Translations under genes and position numbers: made by a program
The notes under the pieces: model-generated
What the model saw: the letters and a program-made list of their open reading frames with translations, nothing else
Database searches by the model: none
Told to the model about the DNA's origin: nothing
From: Dehalococcoidia bacterium
GTDB taxonomy: Bacteria > Chloroflexota > Dehalococcoidia > GIF9 > AB-539-J10
Length of the DNA stretch: 64,000 nt
NCBI GenBank assembly: GCA_030615625.1
Contig: JAUWYX010000008.1
Span: 1-64,000 of the forward strand
Direction: 5' to 3'
Shown: piece by piece, positions 7,616 to 63,459 of the stretch
How the letters are laid out: the number at the start of each line of letters is the position of its first letter
Position numbering within the stretch: position 1 is the first letter of the stretch

Positions 7616-8518
7616 ATGAAGACTAATGCTGTCAATATGACCGAAAAGGAATATCTACTGCCAGGTAGCAGGACCTGCCCTGGCTGTGCCTTGTCGCTCG
7701 CTTATCGTCACATTCTAAAAGCACTGGAAGGGCAGGTTATTGTGACGGTGCCAGCCAGTTGCCTCACAGTGCTGCATGGCATGTATCCCGTAACATCTGT
7801 CACTGCCCCCTGTGTAAATACGCCATTTGCCTCCACTGCGGCATCGGCTACCGGCCTGGTTGCCGGGCTTAAAGCCTTGGGCAAAGATGGGGTGACCGTG
7901 CTGGCTATCGCCGGTGATGGTGGGACACATGACATAGGCCTCCAGGCGCTGAGCGCCGCTGCTGAAAGGCAGAACGACTTCCTCTATATCTGCTATGACA
8001 ATGAAGGCTACATGAACACCGGCAATCAACGCTCAGGCTCCACGCCACTGGGCGCGCTTTCAGGCACTACACCTATTCTGGGCAAACAGCAGAACCAGAA
8101 AGACATAACAGCCATAATGGAGGCACATGGCATCCCTTATGTTGCTACTGCAAATGCTTCCTATCCTCTGGACCTTTACGAAAAAGTCAGGAAAGCGAGG
8201 ACAATACGAGGGACCAGGTTCATACATGTATTCACACCCTGTTCCCCGGGATGGTCGTTCCCCTTCAGTGATACTATCAGGATCGGCAAGCTCGCGGTGG
8301 AAACGGGATGGGTGATACTTTATGAGGTTGAAGACGGCATTTTCCGCCTCACTTCGGCGAGTGAATCCATTGCCAAGAGGGATAACTTAAGACCACTGAG
8401 AGAATATCTCATGGAGCAGGGAAGGTTCAAGAATATTACCGAAGACCAGATTAACGAACTGCAGGGTTGGGTAAATGCTCGGTGGAAGCGTTGCCTGGAT
8501 CGGGCAGTCAATTTATAG
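7616..8518 (+). CDS. porB: 2-oxoacid:ferredoxin oxidoreductase, beta subunit
   Basis: 300 residues, the TPP- and Fe4S4-binding subunit. ATG 7616 is preferred over GTG 7592 because GAGAGG lies nine bases upstream. Cluster ligands appear as the CPGC pair near the N-terminus, a cysteine in VPASC and one in the later APCVNTPF segment. The TPP diphosphate motif is GDGGTHDIG, followed by ICYDNEGYMNTGNQRS. The length is normal for PorB. With porA, porC and porD it makes acyl-CoA and reduced ferredoxin, or runs in the carboxylating direction for assimilation. The exact 2-oxoacid is not decided by sequence, though the subunit layout favours pyruvate. Confidence 0.93.
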   Translation: MKTNAVNMTEKEYLLPGSRTCPGCALSLAYRHILKALEGQVIVTVPASCLTVLHGMYPVTSVTAPCVNTPFASTAASATGLVAGLKALGKDGVTVLAIAGDGGTHDIGLQALSAAAERQNDFLYICYDNEGYMNTGNQRSGSTPLGALSGTTPILGKQQNQKDITAIMEAHGIPYVATANASYPLDLYEKVRKARTIRGTRFIHVFTPCSPGWSFPFSDTIRIGKLAVETGWVILYEVEDGIFRLTSASESIAKRDNLRPLREYLMEQGRFKNITEDQINELQGWVNARWKRCLDRAVNL

Positions 8519-8748
8519 GCTTCGGTTAATAGATGGCTCTGCATCTTGGGACGATAAAGGTGGCAGCAAAGGCCAGAGTTTGATAAACCTGAGCAGCCAG
8601 GTTATGACTTGATCGGGGCTTTGACGTTGTCACTGTGCCGTTAGATAAGGATAAAAAGACAGGTAGATAACCTACATGCCTATGTCTGGCGAGGGAATGG
8701 TCTGCATTTAATCATAATCCATAATCATGATTTAATTCTTCGACCTTT

Positions 8749-8840
8749 TGGCGGAGGGAGAGGGATTCGAACCCTCGACCCCGATAACTCGGAGTAAGCG
8801 CTTAGCAGGCGCCCGCACTAGACCACTATGCGATCCCTCC
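8749..8840 (-). tRNA. tRNA-Ser (GCT)
   Basis: A 92-nt tRNA with a GGAGGGA/TCCCTCC acceptor stem, anticodon loop CTGCTAA (anticodon GCT), the long variable arm typical of tRNA-Ser, T-loop GGTTCGAATCC, discriminator G and an encoded CCA. The 230 bp between porB and this gene contain nothing recognisable. Confidence 0.95.
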
Positions 8841-8976
8841 CCTTGCTGTGACTTAATTCATTATGCCATACGTCAGACGAATCAACAAACTTGAAAATCT
8901 TTTCACTGACAAAGCTGACGAAGATTAGCGCAGCTTAAGTGCCGTCTTACTCATTTGCACCCGTCAGTTCCTTATG

Positions 8977-9789
8977 TCACTGCGGGCTCACTTTGCCTTC
9001 TGTTGAGAGGGCCATAATGTTTTCAATGCGGCAGCAGAAGGTACCAGCAGGAGCGACAACTTCAACTGTTTGTCCCCTTTCTTTATCCAGGATTGCTTTG
9101 CCCAAAGGGGAAGCAACAGAAAGTTTACCCCTGGCTGGATTTGCTTCTCGGGGGTCGACTAAAGTATAGCTGAATTCTTTACCTGAGGATAAATCACGAA
9201 GCACTACTGTGTCTCCGAATTTTGCCCTGGATGTATCCTGGTCTGCCCCCATTATCCTAGCCAGATTCAAGGTTGACTCTAACTCCTTGATTCTCCCTTC
9301 CAAATATGACTTTTGCTCTCTGGCTGCTGCCAGGGGAGCGTTTTCTCGAAAGTCCTTGTCCGCGGCTGCTTTTTGTATCTCCTCAATAACTTGGGAGCGT
9401 TGACTTTTCAGGTTGGCTAATTCTTTCTCTAATTTTGCGTAGCCTTGTGCGGTTAAGGTAACCTGGACTTGACCACTCTGCCACACAGCGGCTGTTTTTG
9501 AAGAAGTTTTTTTCGCCCTGAGGTGGGGAGCTAAATTTATGCTGCTGAATCCCTTTTTCCGGATGTACGTAAGAAAAGACCTGAGAGGTTTGACTGCCGA
9601 TGGGATAATCTGTTCGCCATAGCTAGCCACATCCACAGGGCTGATGTCCCTCACCTGCCTGGATGAGCCAAGCCATCTGACGAATTTAGATATCGCTGCC
9701 TGTATTTTCCCCCTTTCTTCCGGCGGTAAATGTGATAGAAAAGCGTCAGCTACTTCAGCAAGTGTCGGGTTGTGCTCGATGTTTTCCAC
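8977..9789 (-). CDS. greA: GreA-type transcription elongation factor with extra N-terminal domain
   Basis: 270 residues, whereas GreA is normally about 160. Residues of about 108-260 form a complete GreA: the coiled-coil start LTAQGYAKLEKELANLKSQR, a tip with the two acidic residues in KDFRENAP (equivalent to DLSENAE in E. coli), and the globular C-domain (GDTVVLRDLSSGKEFSYTLV and the SPLGKAILDKERGQTVEV segment). GreA enters the RNA polymerase secondary channel and stimulates cleavage of backtracked RNA. Residues 1-105 are an added helical domain (VADAFLSHLPPEERG, FVRWLG, PLRSFLTYIRKKGF) resembling the core-binding domain of tyrosine recombinases. The start is GTG 9789, almost at the predicted transcription start. 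Confidence 0.88.
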   Translation of the reverse strand: MENIEHNPTLAEVADAFLSHLPPEERGKIQAAISKFVRWLGSSRQVRDISPVDVASYGEQIIPSAVKPLRSFLTYIRKKGFSSINLAPHLRAKKTSSKTAAVWQSGQVQVTLTAQGYAKLEKELANLKSQRSQVIEEIQKAAADKDFRENAPLAAAREQKSYLEGRIKELESTLNLARIMGADQDTSRAKFGDTVVLRDLSSGKEFSYTLVDPREANPARGKLSVASPLGKAILDKERGQTVEVVAPAGTFCCRIENIMALSTEGKVSPQ

Positions 9790-9798
9790 GAAGAATAA

Positions 9799-9827
9799 AT
9801 GATAGCTTCAAAAATGGACGCTGTCAA
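9799..9827 (-). promoter_or_regulatory. Promoter of greA (near-leaderless)
   Basis: On the minus strand TTGACA (9827-9822), a 17-bp spacer and TATCAT (9804-9799). The predicted transcription start is only about 3 bases before the GTG start at 9789, so the mRNA would be effectively leaderless. Confidence 0.65.
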
Positions 9828-9942
9828 TTTACATATTGGTAGAGAGTGCTTGGGCTTTATCTTCCCGGCATAGTGTGCTAATCTAACTACATTTGTTCCT
9901 GAGCGCTAAAAAGAATCAAGATGTTACGGTGGAATGTCAACG

Positions 9943-10578
9943 ATGAAAACCTTAGTTCAATGTGATTTTGACGGTACAGTTACCGAGGAAGATACTAGTT
10001 TTTTTCTTTTAGATGCCTTCGCTCAGGGAGATTGGCGACGACTGCTGCGAGATTATAAGGAGCACAGGATATCTGTCGGGGAGTTCAATACTAAAGCTTT
10101 TGCCATGGTTAAAGATGATAAACCTACGCTACTTGAAGCACTGAAAGGCAAGGTTAAAGTGCGAGCTGGGCTTCACGAACTGGTAAATTATTGCCTGGGA
10201 GAAGGCTTCAGATTGGTCATTGTGAGCAACGGTCTGGATTTTTACATAAAGGCTGTGCTGAAAGATCTGGGACTGGAGAGCATCGAAGTGCATGCTGCGC
10301 AAGCTTCCTTCCATCCTGAAGGAATGAAAGTCCAATATGTTGGGCCGGATGGTGAAAGACTAGAGGATGGCTTTAAAGAGGCATATACCCAATCGTTTCT
10401 AAAGCTAGGGTACAGGGTAATATATATAGGGAATGGCGATTCCGATGTTGCTCCGGCAAAATACGCTCACTATGTTTTTGCCACGGGTGACTTGCTGGCG
10501 TACTGTAAAGATAACAATCTTAAATATAAACCCTTTGAAACCTTCATTGACGTCGTTAGGGAAGTGAACTTTATGTAG
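9943..10578 (+). CDS. HAD-family phosphatase, MtnX-like
   Basis: A 211-residue HAD hydrolase. Motif I is CDFDGTVTEED near the N-terminus (nucleophile Asp and the second Asp), motif II is the serine in VIVSNGLDFY, and motif IV is GNGDSDVAPA. The size and the SFFLLDAFAQGDW cap region resemble the MtnX/phosphoserine phosphatase-like group. ATG 9943 is chosen because GGTGGA lies nine bases upstream; ATG 9934 directly abuts that sequence and is less likely. No methionine-salvage genes are nearby, so the substrate is unknown. The 3' end overlaps the convergent sensor gene by 8 bp. Confidence 0.82.
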   Translation: MKTLVQCDFDGTVTEEDTSFFLLDAFAQGDWRRLLRDYKEHRISVGEFNTKAFAMVKDDKPTLLEALKGKVKVRAGLHELVNYCLGEGFRLVIVSNGLDFYIKAVLKDLGLESIEVHAAQASFHPEGMKVQYVGPDGERLEDGFKEAYTQSFLKLGYRVIYIGNGDSDVAPAKYAHYVFATGDLLAYCKDNNLKYKPFETFIDVVREVNFM

Positions 10579-59597: not shown

Positions 59598-60014
59598 ATG
59601 AACTATGAATGGATGACGGCACCCTGCGGATTAGATTGTTTTAACTGTTCAATGTACCTAGCGAATGAAAACGAGGAACTAAGAGCCAAAATTTCCAAGA
59701 ACATGGGCATCCCGTTTGAGCAGGCGGTATGTAAAGGGTGTCGTGAGGAAGCAGGGAAACCAGATTTTCTTAACTGGACTGAACCCTGTAATGTTTACAG
59801 GTGCATCACGAAAAGAAAGCTTGACTTTTGTTATCAGTGTTCTGACTTTCCATGTGACAATCTTCACCCGTATGCAGACAGAGCATCCGAAGTACCTCAC
59901 AATACCAAAGTTTTTAATCTGTGTTTAATAAAGAAAATGGGCTTGGAATCATGGGCAAAAACAAAAGCCAAAGATGTGAAGCATACATATTTCAAGGAAA
60001 AGTTCAGGCTATAA
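59598..60014 (+). CDS. DUF3795 cysteine-rich protein
   Basis: 138 residues with a strong ribosome-binding site (AAGGAGG). Cysteine motifs in order: APCGLDCFNCSMY, VCKGCREEAG, NVYRCITKRKLDFCYQCSDF and PCDNL. This is the DUF3795 pattern, small proteins of anaerobes and archaea thought to bind metal; their function is not known. The C-terminal helix ends in YFKEKFRL. It stands alone between the broken methyltransferase and tRNA-Glu. Confidence 0.88.
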   Translation: MNYEWMTAPCGLDCFNCSMYLANENEELRAKISKNMGIPFEQAVCKGCREEAGKPDFLNWTEPCNVYRCITKRKLDFCYQCSDFPCDNLHPYADRASEVPHNTKVFNLCLIKKMGLESWAKTKAKDVKHTYFKEKFRL

Positions 60015-60329: not shown

Positions 60330-60965
60330 CTATTCTGTGAATTCGACCACTACCTCTTTGACGTCCCATAAAGGCTCTATCTTCTCCAGTATCTCGTCCT
60401 TTATGGTGTGAGCAAACTGGTGGTCTCGGGGCAAATCAACAAGCACCCGGACAGTTCCGTCCTTTACCTTAATATCTTGCACCAGGTTTGTACGCACCAC
60501 GTTTAACCCGGTCAGAGGGTTTATAACTTTCCTGAGGCGCTGACGAACTACCTCTACCGTGGTCGGCTTCTTTTCTTTGACCAGGCCGTGACGTTCTTCA
60601 TAGTTTTGTATGGCCGAGCGTAAGCCTTCTACAGCGAGTACCGAACAATGGGCTTTAATTTTGGGAAGTCCTCCCAGAGCTTCTGAAGCTTCTTTCCAGG
60701 TAATGTTCTTTGCTTCATCCAATGTCTTTCCCTTAGCTAGCTCCGTAATTATAGAGCCGGTAGCTATGTTGGAAGCACAGCCGTAAGACTCAAACTTGAC
60801 GTCCGCGATAGTATTCGTCTTGGGGTCAACTTTTATGTAGACAGACACCATGTCCCCACAGGCTGGGCTGCCTTCAGTTGCCTTGCCATCAGGATTCTCA
60901 ATTTTACCCACGTTGCGCGGGTGCCGAAAGTGTTCCAGTACTATGTCGGTATATGGAAATTTCAT
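60330..60965 (-). CDS. IscU/NifU-type Fe-S scaffold fused to a DUF59 (MIP18) domain
   Basis: 211 residues. Residues 1-125 are an IscU scaffold: HFRHPRNVGKIENPDG, Cys36 and Asp38 in ACGDMV, Cys63 in YGCASN, and Cys107 after His106 in KAHCSV. Residues of about 135-211 are a separate DUF59/MIP18-like domain (VRQRLRKVINPLTGLNVVRT, IKVKDGTVRVLVDLPRDHQF). DUF59 proteins help deliver Fe-S clusters (SufT, CIA2). A single chain thus joins cluster assembly and delivery. It follows the NifS-like gene by 2 bp. Confidence 0.92.
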   Translation of the reverse strand: MKFPYTDIVLEHFRHPRNVGKIENPDGKATEGSPACGDMVSVYIKVDPKTNTIADVKFESYGCASNIATGSIITELAKGKTLDEAKNITWKEASEALGGLPKIKAHCSVLAVEGLRSAIQNYEERHGLVKEKKPTTVEVVRQRLRKVINPLTGLNVVRTNLVQDIKVKDGTVRVLVDLPRDHQFAHTIKDEILEKIEPLWDVKEVVVEFTE

Positions 60966-60967
60966 CT

Positions 60968-62152
60968 CTAAGCCTCCTCTTTTTCTTCGTTTTTTCCCAA
61001 GGGACTGATGTTTCTCAGCTCTTCCACTATCTCAGCTAATGCCCGGACCACAGCATCCACATCTTCCATGGTGTTATAACGCCCCAGGGTAAAGCGTATT
61101 GACCCGTGTGCCCTTTCGTGGTCGCCGCCTATCCCTGTGATAACGTGGCTGGCCTCCAGAGAGCGGCTAAAACAGGCGGAGCCCGTGCTCACGGCAAAAC
61201 CACGCATATCAAGATGCAGGGTCATGGACTCGCCCTCCACAAAGTGGAAGGTGATATTAGCATTATGTGGGAGCCTCTTCCGGCGATGGCCATTCAGGGT
61301 GCTGTGTGGTATCTCGGCAAGCATGCGGTCAATAAGGTGATCGCGCATTTCTTGCAGGCGTTTGGTTTCTTTGGGGGTGACCAGTCCCACCGCTTTGGCA
61401 AATCCCACCGCCCCAGCTATATTTTCCAGCCCCGCCCGGAGATTGAATTCCTGAAATCCGCCGTCCACCCACTTGGCTATTTGTGTTCCTTGGCGGATGC
61501 ACAGGCCTCCTGTGCCCTTGGGGCCGTGGATGGTGTGTGCTGATACAGTGACCAGGTCCACAGCTATCTTCTTCATATCCAGAGGGACCCGCGTAAAGGT
61601 ATGAGTAGCATCAGTGTGGAAAAGCACCTCTTTTTCACGGCAGATACCCCCGACAGCTTCGATATCCTGAATGGTACCTATTTCCTGGTTGGCATGCTGG
61701 ATGGAGACCAGAATGGTCTCATTGGTTATGGAATCTCTTAGGCGGTCAATGTCCACAAAGCCCTCCCCATCCACATCCAGATAGGTCACCTGAAAGCCCT
61801 GTTTTTCCAGCGCTTGTGCGCTGTGAAGCACAGGGAAATCCTCGATCTTTGACACAATTATGTGTTTACCTTTCTTCTTACTGAGGGCCAGTGCCACTCC
61901 TTTGAGGGCAATGTTAGAGGACTCGGTACTTCCCGAAGTGAAAATGAACTCTTCGGGGGCAGCACCTAAAGCATTGGCCAGAGCCTCTCTGGCTTCGTCT
62001 AACGTCTCTCGAGCTTCTATCCCCTGAGAATAGCCAAACTCTGAGGTGGCAACCGCGTATGTATCAAAGAGATACGGTCTCATCGCCTCCAGCACCCGCT
62101 CATCCAAACGAGTAGCCGATGCGTTGTCCAGGTAAATAAGTTTGCCCGCCAT
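60968..62152 (-). CDS. NifS/IscS-like protein lacking the PLP lysine
   Basis: 394 residues from ATG 62152 (GGGGGAG just upstream; an ATG at 62167 would add five residues). The fold is clearly class V aminotransferase/cysteine desulfurase: YLDNASATRLDERV, FTSGSTESSNIALKG, HANQEIGTIQD. The active-site loop with cysteine is present (STGSACFSRSLEASHV, Cys327). However SAHTIHGPKG has Thr207 where the Schiff-base lysine stands (SAHK), DATH replaces DATQ (Gln to His184), and IEDF replaces the EH pair whose histidine stacks on PLP. It may be a persulfide scaffold rather than a desulfurase. The neighbours are dsrE-like and iscU. Confidence 0.9.
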   Translation of the reverse strand: MAGKLIYLDNASATRLDERVLEAMRPYLFDTYAVATSEFGYSQGIEARETLDEAREALANALGAAPEEFIFTSGSTESSNIALKGVALALSKKKGKHIIVSKIEDFPVLHSAQALEKQGFQVTYLDVDGEGFVDIDRLRDSITNETILVSIQHANQEIGTIQDIEAVGGICREKEVLFHTDATHTFTRVPLDMKKIAVDLVTVSAHTIHGPKGTGGLCIRQGTQIAKWVDGGFQEFNLRAGLENIAGAVGFAKAVGLVTPKETKRLQEMRDHLIDRMLAEIPHSTLNGHRRKRLPHNANITFHFVEGESMTLHLDMRGFAVSTGSACFSRSLEASHVITGIGGDHERAHGSIRFTLGRYNTMEDVDAVVRALAEIVEELRNISPLGKNEEKEEA

Positions 62153-62163
62153 TTTCTCCCCCG

Positions 62164-62583
62164 TCATATAAAGAGGGTTATTGTTGATTCCCTAGCCTCA
62201 TCTATGTAGGTACCAACTGCACAGTAATCCGATATCAAATCATCACGGAGGTCTTCTTTCTTTATGCCCATTATCTGCATTGTCATGTCGCAGGCGAGTA
62301 TCTTCCCTCCAAGCTCGTGGAAGTCCTGTAGCAGCCTCTCCAGAGACGCCGCCCCGGCTTTCTTCATCCTGCGCTTGACCATCCATTTACCAAGGCCCAG
62401 CATGTTCATTTTAGATAGAGGTCCCTTTTCCAGCCCCCCTTTCTTGAGGCGCTGGAGACCCCAGAAGGTGAAGAACAGTGATGCTTCCATCCCCATGGCA
62501 AGGGCCCCGTTGGCTACAATAAGGGCGCTATACACCTTATCCATGTCGCCGCTATGAACTATTATAATAACTTTGCCAGCCAT
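62164..62583 (-). CDS. DsrE/DsrF-like family protein
   Basis: 139 residues. VIIIVHSGDMDKVYSALIVA, GMEASLFFTFWGLQRLKKGG, a central basic stretch (KWMVKRRMKKAG) and the cysteine-containing ILACDMTMQIMGI are typical of DsrE-like peroxiredoxin-family sulfur carriers. A second cysteine is in ISDYCAVGTYIDEA. These proteins accept and pass on persulfide sulfur, often with TusA. It starts 15 bp downstream of tusA in the same operon. Confidence 0.88.
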   Translation of the reverse strand: MAGKVIIIVHSGDMDKVYSALIVANGALAMGMEASLFFTFWGLQRLKKGGLEKGPLSKMNMLGLGKWMVKRRMKKAGAASLERLLQDFHELGGKILACDMTMQIMGIKKEDLRDDLISDYCAVGTYIDEARESTITLFI

Positions 62584-62598: not shown

Positions 62599-62820
62599 CT
62601 ACTTGCGTATTCTTATTTTCCACATCCCACCTTCCTCCTGTACATCAATGAGCTCCAGTCCCAAAGCCTTTACCGCCATCGGTATCTCTTTCTTGGAAGC
62701 AGGATGCGTTCCAGTAACCTCCACAATATCGCCCTCTTTTGCTTTCCTCAGAGCCTTGCGAGTCTCAACTAAAGGAATAGGGCAAGTTTCACCTGTGCAA
62801 TCCACCTTTATTTCAGCCAT
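62599..62820 (-). CDS. tusA: TusA-family sulfur carrier
   Basis: 73 residues. The CPxP motif with the sulfur-carrying cysteine is Cys13 in TGETCPIPLVETRKALRKAK, followed by GDIVEVTGTHPASKKEIPM. It carries persulfide between proteins. It is first of the tusA-dsrE-nifS-iscU order and has AGGTGATG just before the ATG. Confidence 0.93.
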   Translation of the reverse strand: MAEIKVDCTGETCPIPLVETRKALRKAKEGDIVEVTGTHPASKKEIPMAVKALGLELIDVQEEGGMWKIRIRK

Positions 62821-62955: not shown

Positions 62956-63459
62956 CTACTCTATGAGCTTGAACATTTTCCTGGGCGCTCCGCAGACGGG
63001 ACATTTTTCAGGGGCTTCTCCCTCAACCGTGTTGCCGCAATATTGGCAAACGTAGATTGGTTTCTCCCCAATAGTCTCACCCTTTTCAACCTTGCTCAGG
63101 GCAGCGTCAAACAAAGCATGATGAATCTGCTCGACCTTATTTGCCAGGTCAAAGCTATCTTTGGCCTTGTCTTCACCATCGGCCTCAGCCTCCTTTATGA
63201 ATCCAGGATACATTTCGGTGAACTCATAATTCTCGCCACCCTTTGCAGCCAACAGGTTTTCTCTCGTTGATTTTATTCCCTGCATAACCTTCAGGTGATT
63301 TCTGGCATGCGCTGTCTCGGCATCGGCTGCGGCACGAAACAACCGTGCTATCTGTTTGTATCCCTCCTGTTCAGCCTTTTCAGCGAAGAACAAATATTTA
63401 CGGTTGGCCTGGCTTTCTCCAGCAAAAGCAGTCTCCAAATTATCTCTGGTATTACTCAT
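62956..63459 (-). CDS. Rubrerythrin
   Basis: 167 residues. N-terminal ferritin-like diiron domain: ETAFAGESQANRKYLFFAEK, AADAETAHARNHLKVM, and DFANKVEQIHHALFDAAL-like helix. C-terminal rubredoxin-like site: CQYCGNTVEGEAPEKCPVCG. It reduces hydrogen peroxide using NADH-linked rubredoxin-type donors in anaerobes. It lies 135 bp upstream of tusA and may share its transcript. Confidence 0.95.
   Translation of the reverse strand: MSNTRDNLETAFAGESQANRKYLFFAEKAEQEGYKQIARLFRAAADAETAHARNHLKVMQGIKSTRENLLAAKGGENYEFTEMYPGFIKEAEADGEDKAKDSFDLANKVEQIHHALFDAALSKVEKGETIGEKPIYVCQYCGNTVEGEAPEKCPVCGAPRKMFKLIE

Follow-up and report, generated by a model that had tools for sequence, protein, structure and literature searches.

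Lysine-less NifS-like proteins encoded with TusA and DsrE in bacteria and archaea: a candidate sulfur-relay route to the IscU scaffold

NifS-like proteins that lack the PLP lysine form a large family distributed over two domains of life, and they are accompanied by the sulfur carriers TusA and DsrE. We identified one such protein in a Dehalococcoidia bacterium, on a 64,000-nucleotide stretch of DNA (the whole stretch analyzed, hereafter the window), where it is encoded together with TusA, a DsrE2-type carrier, and an IscU scaffold. On balance, and with modest confidence, we favor the interpretation that this NifS-fold protein does not produce sulfur from cysteine, that TusA and DsrE2 load its Cys332 or the NifS-IscU complex, and that Cys332 passes the sulfur to an IscU-DUF59 scaffold. 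The protein bears on the question of how many anaerobes supply their Fe-S clusters with sulfur that does not come from cysteine. Sulfide is the source in Methanococcus maripaludis, and in Methanosarcina acetivorans neither SufBC nor IscSU2 explains sulfide-dependent assembly (PMC10500019 and PMC7585200). An apparently dead NifS tied to TusA, DsrE, and IscU represents a concrete, testable candidate route, for which the iscS1U1 cluster of Methanosarcina gives a genetically tractable host.

The operon lies on the minus strand, with its four genes co-directional and transcribed in the order TusA, DsrE2, NifS-like protein, and IscU: (i) TusA (62599..62820; PF01206, E 9.8e-24), with Cys13 in a TCPIP motif; (ii) the DsrE2-type carrier (62164..62583; PF13686 [DrsE_2], E 4.8e-37), which is also a partial match to NF047629, scoring 73.7 bits against an equivalog cut-off of 210; (iii) the NifS-like protein (60968..62167; 399 aa; PF00266, E 3.9e-68); and (iv) IscU (60330..60965), which carries a NifU_N domain (PF01592, E 4.1e-42) and a C-terminal DUF59/MIP18-type domain (PF01883 [FeS_assembly_P], E 9.3e-13). 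Since both of the latter matches fall in one chain, the scaffold is a fusion protein; its cluster-site residues are Cys36, Asp38, Cys63, and Cys107. These Pfam matches and the shared orientation bear out the earlier reading of this DNA made from sequence only (the sequence-only reading), which had placed TusA and a DsrE-like carrier in front of the NifS-like gene, in an operon with IscU. The DsrE2 stop codon overlaps the first NifS-like start (ATG 62167), and an internal ATG at 62152, preceded by GGGGGAG, may well be the true start. A rubrerythrin gene (62956..63459, minus strand; PF02915, E 6.9e-25) lies upstream of TusA in the same direction; it adjoins the operon in close relatives only and was rejected as a core component. 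On the plus strand, a gene for a DUF3795 cysteine-rich protein (59598-60014) is convergent with the operon.

Alignment with the canonical NifS of the same genome (48% identity) revealed that the PLP site of the NifS-like protein has been extensively altered. The Schiff-base lysine (K206 in E. coli IscS) is replaced by Thr212 (codon ACC, 61532..61534), the PLP-contacting Gln183 by His189 (61601..61603), the PLP-stacking His104 by Asp110 (61838..61840), and the phosphate-binding Thr243 by Leu247 (61427..61429). At the position of Asn155, which is Asn in 100% of lysine-bearing NifS proteins, the window protein has Gln161 (61685..61687; all codons on the minus strand). Five PLP/substrate contacts are thus changed (i.e., K206 to T, Q183 to H, H104 to D, N155 to Q, and T243 to L), and the equivalents of T76, D180, S203, H205, and C328 are kept, the last being Cys332 (61172..61174, minus strand), the invariant catalytic-loop cysteine in STGSACFSR. 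This numbering follows what we take to be the E. coli IscS sequence, with agreement at seven known residues. Next to Asp110 is Phe111, and the segment AVATSEFG contains a two-residue insert where the canonical NifS reads GNPSS. The changes at the lysine, glutamine, and stacking-histidine positions had been recognized in the sequence-only reading; its Thr207, His184, and Cys327 correspond to our Thr212, His189, and Cys332 counted from ATG 62167, the difference of five arising from its start at ATG 62152. The NifS-like protein scores below all of the NCBIfam cysteine desulfurase cut-offs listed, including those of the NifS equivalog TIGR03402 (446 bits versus 531) and of TIGR02006 (365 versus 643). 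Judged from these residues, PLP use has most likely been lost. PLP binding need not have disappeared with the lysine, however, and the equivalents of D180, T76, and H205 remain.

The PF00266 match and the predicted structure identify the protein as a member of the NifS/IscS fold (fold-type I, class V aminotransferase). An AlphaFold2 model built from a 66-row alignment reached a pLDDT of 90.7, with values below 50 solely at the extreme termini and in the Cys loop (residues 331-336), a loop that is mobile across the NifS/IscS family. VIA-align Z scores were 51 to 56 against E. coli IscS (alone, with IscU, and with TusA), human NFS1-ISCU2, and Archaeoglobus fulgidus IscS. The comparisons with E. 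coli IscS and human NFS1 gave 54 to 56, and that with A. fulgidus IscS gave about 52, at 44 to 45% identity. The model superposes on the IscS-IscU, IscS-TusA, and NFS1-ISCU2 structures. Together with the invariance of Cys332 in the clade, these scores agree with the previous suggestion that the catalytic Cys loop and fold have been kept.

A scan of one genome per species yielded 170 stretches encoding relatives, of which the best 80 were taken for locus analysis. The relatives come from Chloroflexota, "Deltaproteobacteria," Bacillota, Atribacterota, a Thermodesulfovibrionales MAG, WOR-3, and many methanogenic archaea. In samples of 393 genomes from the archaeal phylum to which Methanolobus belongs and of 400 genomes from the window's own phylum, the type was detected at E <= 1e-140 in 55 and 8 genomes, respectively, and it is therefore patchily distributed. 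Conservation of the gene order, posed as a question in the sequence-only reading, was observed: the 80 loci include TusA in 74 cases, DsrE2 in 75, and IscU in 79, with several of the absences falling at contig ends. The putative relay cysteines are equally constant (TusA Cys13, in a CPxP motif, in 74/74; DsrE2 Cys98 in 75/75), and IscU Cys36, Cys63, and Cys107 are present in all 79 other rows. The NifS position equivalent to E. coli Glu49, which is involved in TusA docking, carries an acidic residue throughout the window-type rows (Glu, 92%; Asp, 8%) and is Glu in 26% of lysine-bearing NifS proteins; a tie between this acidic residue and TusA docking is suggestive only.

The window type is not the only lysine-less NifS. 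A genus-mate (locus L029; G037:C37) encodes a different NifS that has Gln at the lysine position; after it come, in this order, genes for IscU, a zinc-ribbon protein, TusA, and a DsrE-like protein. Tracing this protein and A. fulgidus IscS through whole genomes led to two further lysine-less groups. Members of the Dehalococcoidia type (L029, L202-L221, and L240-L257) mostly have Gln, at times Glu or Pro, for the lysine and occur with IscU, TusA, and DsrE genes. In the Archaeoglobus type, Lys is replaced by Asp (or Gln), Gln by Ala, and His205 by Asn; the window protein has Thr, His, and His at these three positions. Both A. fulgidus IscS proteins (L222 and L223; genome G586) lack the lysine, as the sequence-only reading had noted for an Archaeoglobus IscS, and both adjoin a DsrE gene and IscU; TusA lies directly upstream of one, and TusA/DsrE genes lie approximately 6 kb from the other. 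The A. fulgidus IscU proteins at the two loci are identical. In 69 lysine-bearing sequences, conservation of K206, Q183, and N155 is 100%. Each of the three lysine-less types has lost K206 and Q183; N155 is missing from the window type and from most of the others. The Cys328 equivalent is conserved at 100% in every type.

To characterize the association with the carriers, we counted TusA or DsrE genes on the same strand within 3-kb flanks after removing duplicates. They were found with 50 of 51 window-type genes and with 24 of 24 and 17 of 19 genes of the other two lysine-less types, amounting to 91/94 lysine-less versus 1/35 lysine-bearing NifS genes (Fisher P = 1.6e-26, uncorrected for relatedness); the sole lysine-bearing exception adjoins a window-type operon. 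The gene order varies by type, with the carriers either before NifS or after IscU, suggesting a functional link rather than an inherited order. TusA/DsrE are thus strongly associated with lysine-less NifS in general, in three groups that include A. fulgidus. In a first tree, the window type formed a single clade with full support, to which A. fulgidus IscS did not belong, and a quick tree built without the pocket columns contained three supported clades of lysine-less NifS. As a single clade of all lysine-less rows was not rejected (p-AU 0.555), we do not claim independent losses. It had already been published that A. fulgidus IscS lacks the lysine and is inactive and that PLP residues are missing from M. 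acetivorans IscS1. The observations that appear to be new are the size of the lysine-less family, its spread over two domains, and its accompaniment by TusA/DsrE. We found neither such a family nor a TusA/DsrE-IscS link in Archaeoglobus or Methanosarcina in the open-access literature covered, a weak absence given that scope.

In the mechanism that we favor for the window type, the mobile Cys332 loop and the body that docks IscU are all that the NifS-like protein would retain, and it would release no sulfur from cysteine. TusA (Cys13) and DsrE2 (Cys98) would carry sulfane sulfur and either load Cys332 or pass the sulfur through the NifS-IscU complex; Cys332 would then hand it to IscU-DUF59 or serve as a cluster ligand, as in the A. 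fulgidus IscS-IscU structure. Candidate primary donors are polysulfide, a sulfide-derived persulfide, or cysteine via the canonical NifS. The loss of PLP contacts, the retention of the Cys loop and fold, the conserved relay cysteines and operon, and the carrier association support this sulfur relay, of which we infer the lack of PLP binding, the direction and order of transfer, and the primary donor. Some points count against it. In E. coli, sulfur flows from IscS to TusA, and IscS docks TusA and IscU at different sites and not simultaneously (PMC2854127), so transfer from TusA to a NifS protein would be new. In Metallosphaera, DsrE2B failed to react with any sulfur compound that was tried, whereas DsrE3A and TusA reacted with tetrathionate (PMC4175335). 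Lastly, most window-type genomes contain a canonical NifS. A broader proposal, which we advance tentatively as possible rather than probable, is that in a widespread class of lysine-less NifS-IscU pairs, comprising at least three groups of bacteria and archaea and including A. fulgidus, sulfane sulfur from TusA/DsrE replaces PLP-dependent desulfuration, such that the ISC system would need no cysteine desulfurase; in the window type, the former PLP pocket would have been remodeled with invariant Asp, Gln, and His residues.

The relay would differ from known assembly systems. Canonical NifS/IscS-IscU and the minimal MisS-MisU share with the window family the two-protein NifS-IscU core, the fold, and the Cys loop, but in canonical NifS/IscS and MisS the lysine is present and cysteine is the sulfur source, whereas the window family is missing five PLP/substrate contacts and is linked with TusA/DsrE. 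The SMS system (SmsCB) of methanogens is reported to assemble clusters from sulfide in a genome without a cysteine desulfurase (PMC12192291); it uses a SufBC-type scaffold with neither NifS nor IscU, whereas the window system has an IscU scaffold and retains an apparently dead NifS. The rhd-tusA-dsrE2 and tusA-dsrE-hdr clusters of sulfur oxidizers also contain TusA and DsrE2 with conserved cysteines (PMC4175335). Unlike these clusters, the window operon has the NifS-like protein and IscU as neighbors, and Hdr or Dsr genes are absent from its recurring neighbors.

The best-surviving alternative, which we nevertheless consider rather unlikely, is that the NifS-like protein is a cysteine ligand and docking platform on IscU, that the sulfur comes from free sulfide, and that TusA and DsrE2 serve another client. 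The retained Cys loop and fold fit this explanation, and it matches the role published for A. fulgidus IscS, which belongs to another lysine-less type and is described as inactive and as contributing a cysteine ligand to the cluster on IscU (summarized in PMC7585200). That protein (PDB 4eb5, 4eb7, and 4hvk; D199) resembles the window protein in its NifS fold, lost lysine, kept Cys loop, adjacent IscU, and nearby TusA/DsrE genes. It differs in its substitutions (Lys to Asp, Gln to Ala, and His205 to Asn, with the stacking His kept), in its IscU, which lacks DUF59, and in belonging to a separate clade. Another counterpart is M. acetivorans IscS1 (MA0808), described in PMC7585200 as missing the PLP residues including the lysine, containing the motif STGSACFS, and paired with a 24-kDa IscU1 (MA0807). 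According to the same paper, iscS1U1 is clustered with four genes of unknown function, and IscS1 formed inclusion bodies. By this description, the pair fits the window family, which is found with the same operon in many Methanosarcina. A purely ligand role leaves the TusA/DsrE bias (91/94 versus 1/35) unexplained. A cluster-ligand role and delivery by TusA/DsrE can both be true together, and the carriers would supply a partner set for the otherwise unexplained A. fulgidus IscS.

Alternatively, cysteine may remain the source, with a canonical NifS charging TusA, and TusA-DsrE2 feeding a second, specialized NifS-IscU pair, as would accord with the charging of TusA by E. coli IscS (PMC2854127). 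The window's genome encodes a canonical NifS (G000:C4:202427-203593) followed by IscU, and the idea that the NifS-like protein is the sole NifS of the genome was rejected accordingly. Four single-contig genomes with the window type also contain further NifS copies, and 41 of 49 other window-type genomes have a second NifS/SufS-type match (E <= 1e-46). The explanation fails for A. fulgidus and other genomes without a lysine-bearing NifS, and for the MAGs with the window type alone, though MAGs may be incomplete; we regard it as improbable. At E <= 1e-46, no second match was found in 8 of the 49 genomes, subject to the same incompleteness of MAGs, and the other class-V genes of three near-complete MAGs (G328, G047, and G048) look like aminotransferases of different types. 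The A. fulgidus genome (a 2.18-Mb single contig with a 100% match to the PDB IscS) contains two lysine-less NifS genes and one weak match (88 bits) and no lysine-bearing NifS; several of its relatives show the same NifS complement. No lysine-bearing NifS/IscS/SufS was found in A. fulgidus and approximately ten more genomes, MAG incompleteness limiting the cases other than A. fulgidus, which is what a cysteine-free route would predict. The desulfurase-independent route proposed in the sequence-only reading is well motivated and plausible; in the window's genome, where the canonical NifS-IscU pair could charge TusA from cysteine, it would be an additional route and not the only one.

The substituted residues of the pocket are themselves highly conserved. 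Asp110, Phe111, His189, Thr212, His214, and Cys332 are found in 85 of 85 bacterial and archaeal members of the clade, whereas in 42 of 42 lysine-bearing NifS proteins position 110 is His, position 189 is Gln, position 212 is Lys, and position 332 is Cys, indicating that the substitutions are not due to chance. The peptide patterns used in the scan (YAVATSEF and QHANQEIG) leave out these four diagnostic positions. Divergent members recovered without the patterns have Leu or Val at position 212 in three of eight cases and Lys in none of the eight, which weakens the candidacy of Thr212 as a new catalytic residue. It is conceivable, though very unlikely in our view, that the emptied PLP pocket holds a new ligand (i.e., a metal, a persulfide, or another cofactor) through Asp110, His189, Gln157, Gln161, and His214 and confers a new activity. 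Within the window-type clade, these residues reach approximately 98 to 100% conservation, and lysine-bearing NifS proteins seldom or never have them at the corresponding positions, but the other two lysine-less types are without them, and the idea could therefore concern the window type only. The dN/dS of the NifS-like gene among near relatives (0.09 to 0.19) points to purifying selection and probably a functional protein. A decaying pseudogene or non-functional paralogue can be practically dismissed: a canonical paralogue is present in the genome, but the dN/dS values, the new residues invariant over two domains, and the conserved operon contradict it. Thus, of the combination that the sequence-only reading had set against its own proposal (i.e., a second, canonical NifS doing the work and this gene being a pseudogene), the first half is present and the second is contradicted.

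Neighbor clustering revealed no constant extra neighbor pointing to a sulfur source (e.g., a rhodanese, transporter, or reductase). The recurring neighbors with a plausible link are FdhD, DUF2284, and an Asp/Glu racemase-like gene, each in few lineages. FdhD, the formate dehydrogenase sulfurtransferase, was found near lysine-less operons at four loci; at L055 it (7850-8638) separates the lysine-less operon from a canonical NifS-IscU pair (8713-10309). DUF2284 family genes occur in eight loci, including a methanogen in which a gene for this predicted metal-binding protein follows IscU (L094, 6094-6633). The Asp/Glu racemase-like genes lie between the NifS-like gene and IscU in one genus of the window's family (L087, 1424-2086; L014, 2680-4135). 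At L170, a ferredoxin-like frame with two 4Fe-4S motifs (73-435) directly precedes a divergent window-type NifS, and TusA and DsrE2 are located downstream of IscU.
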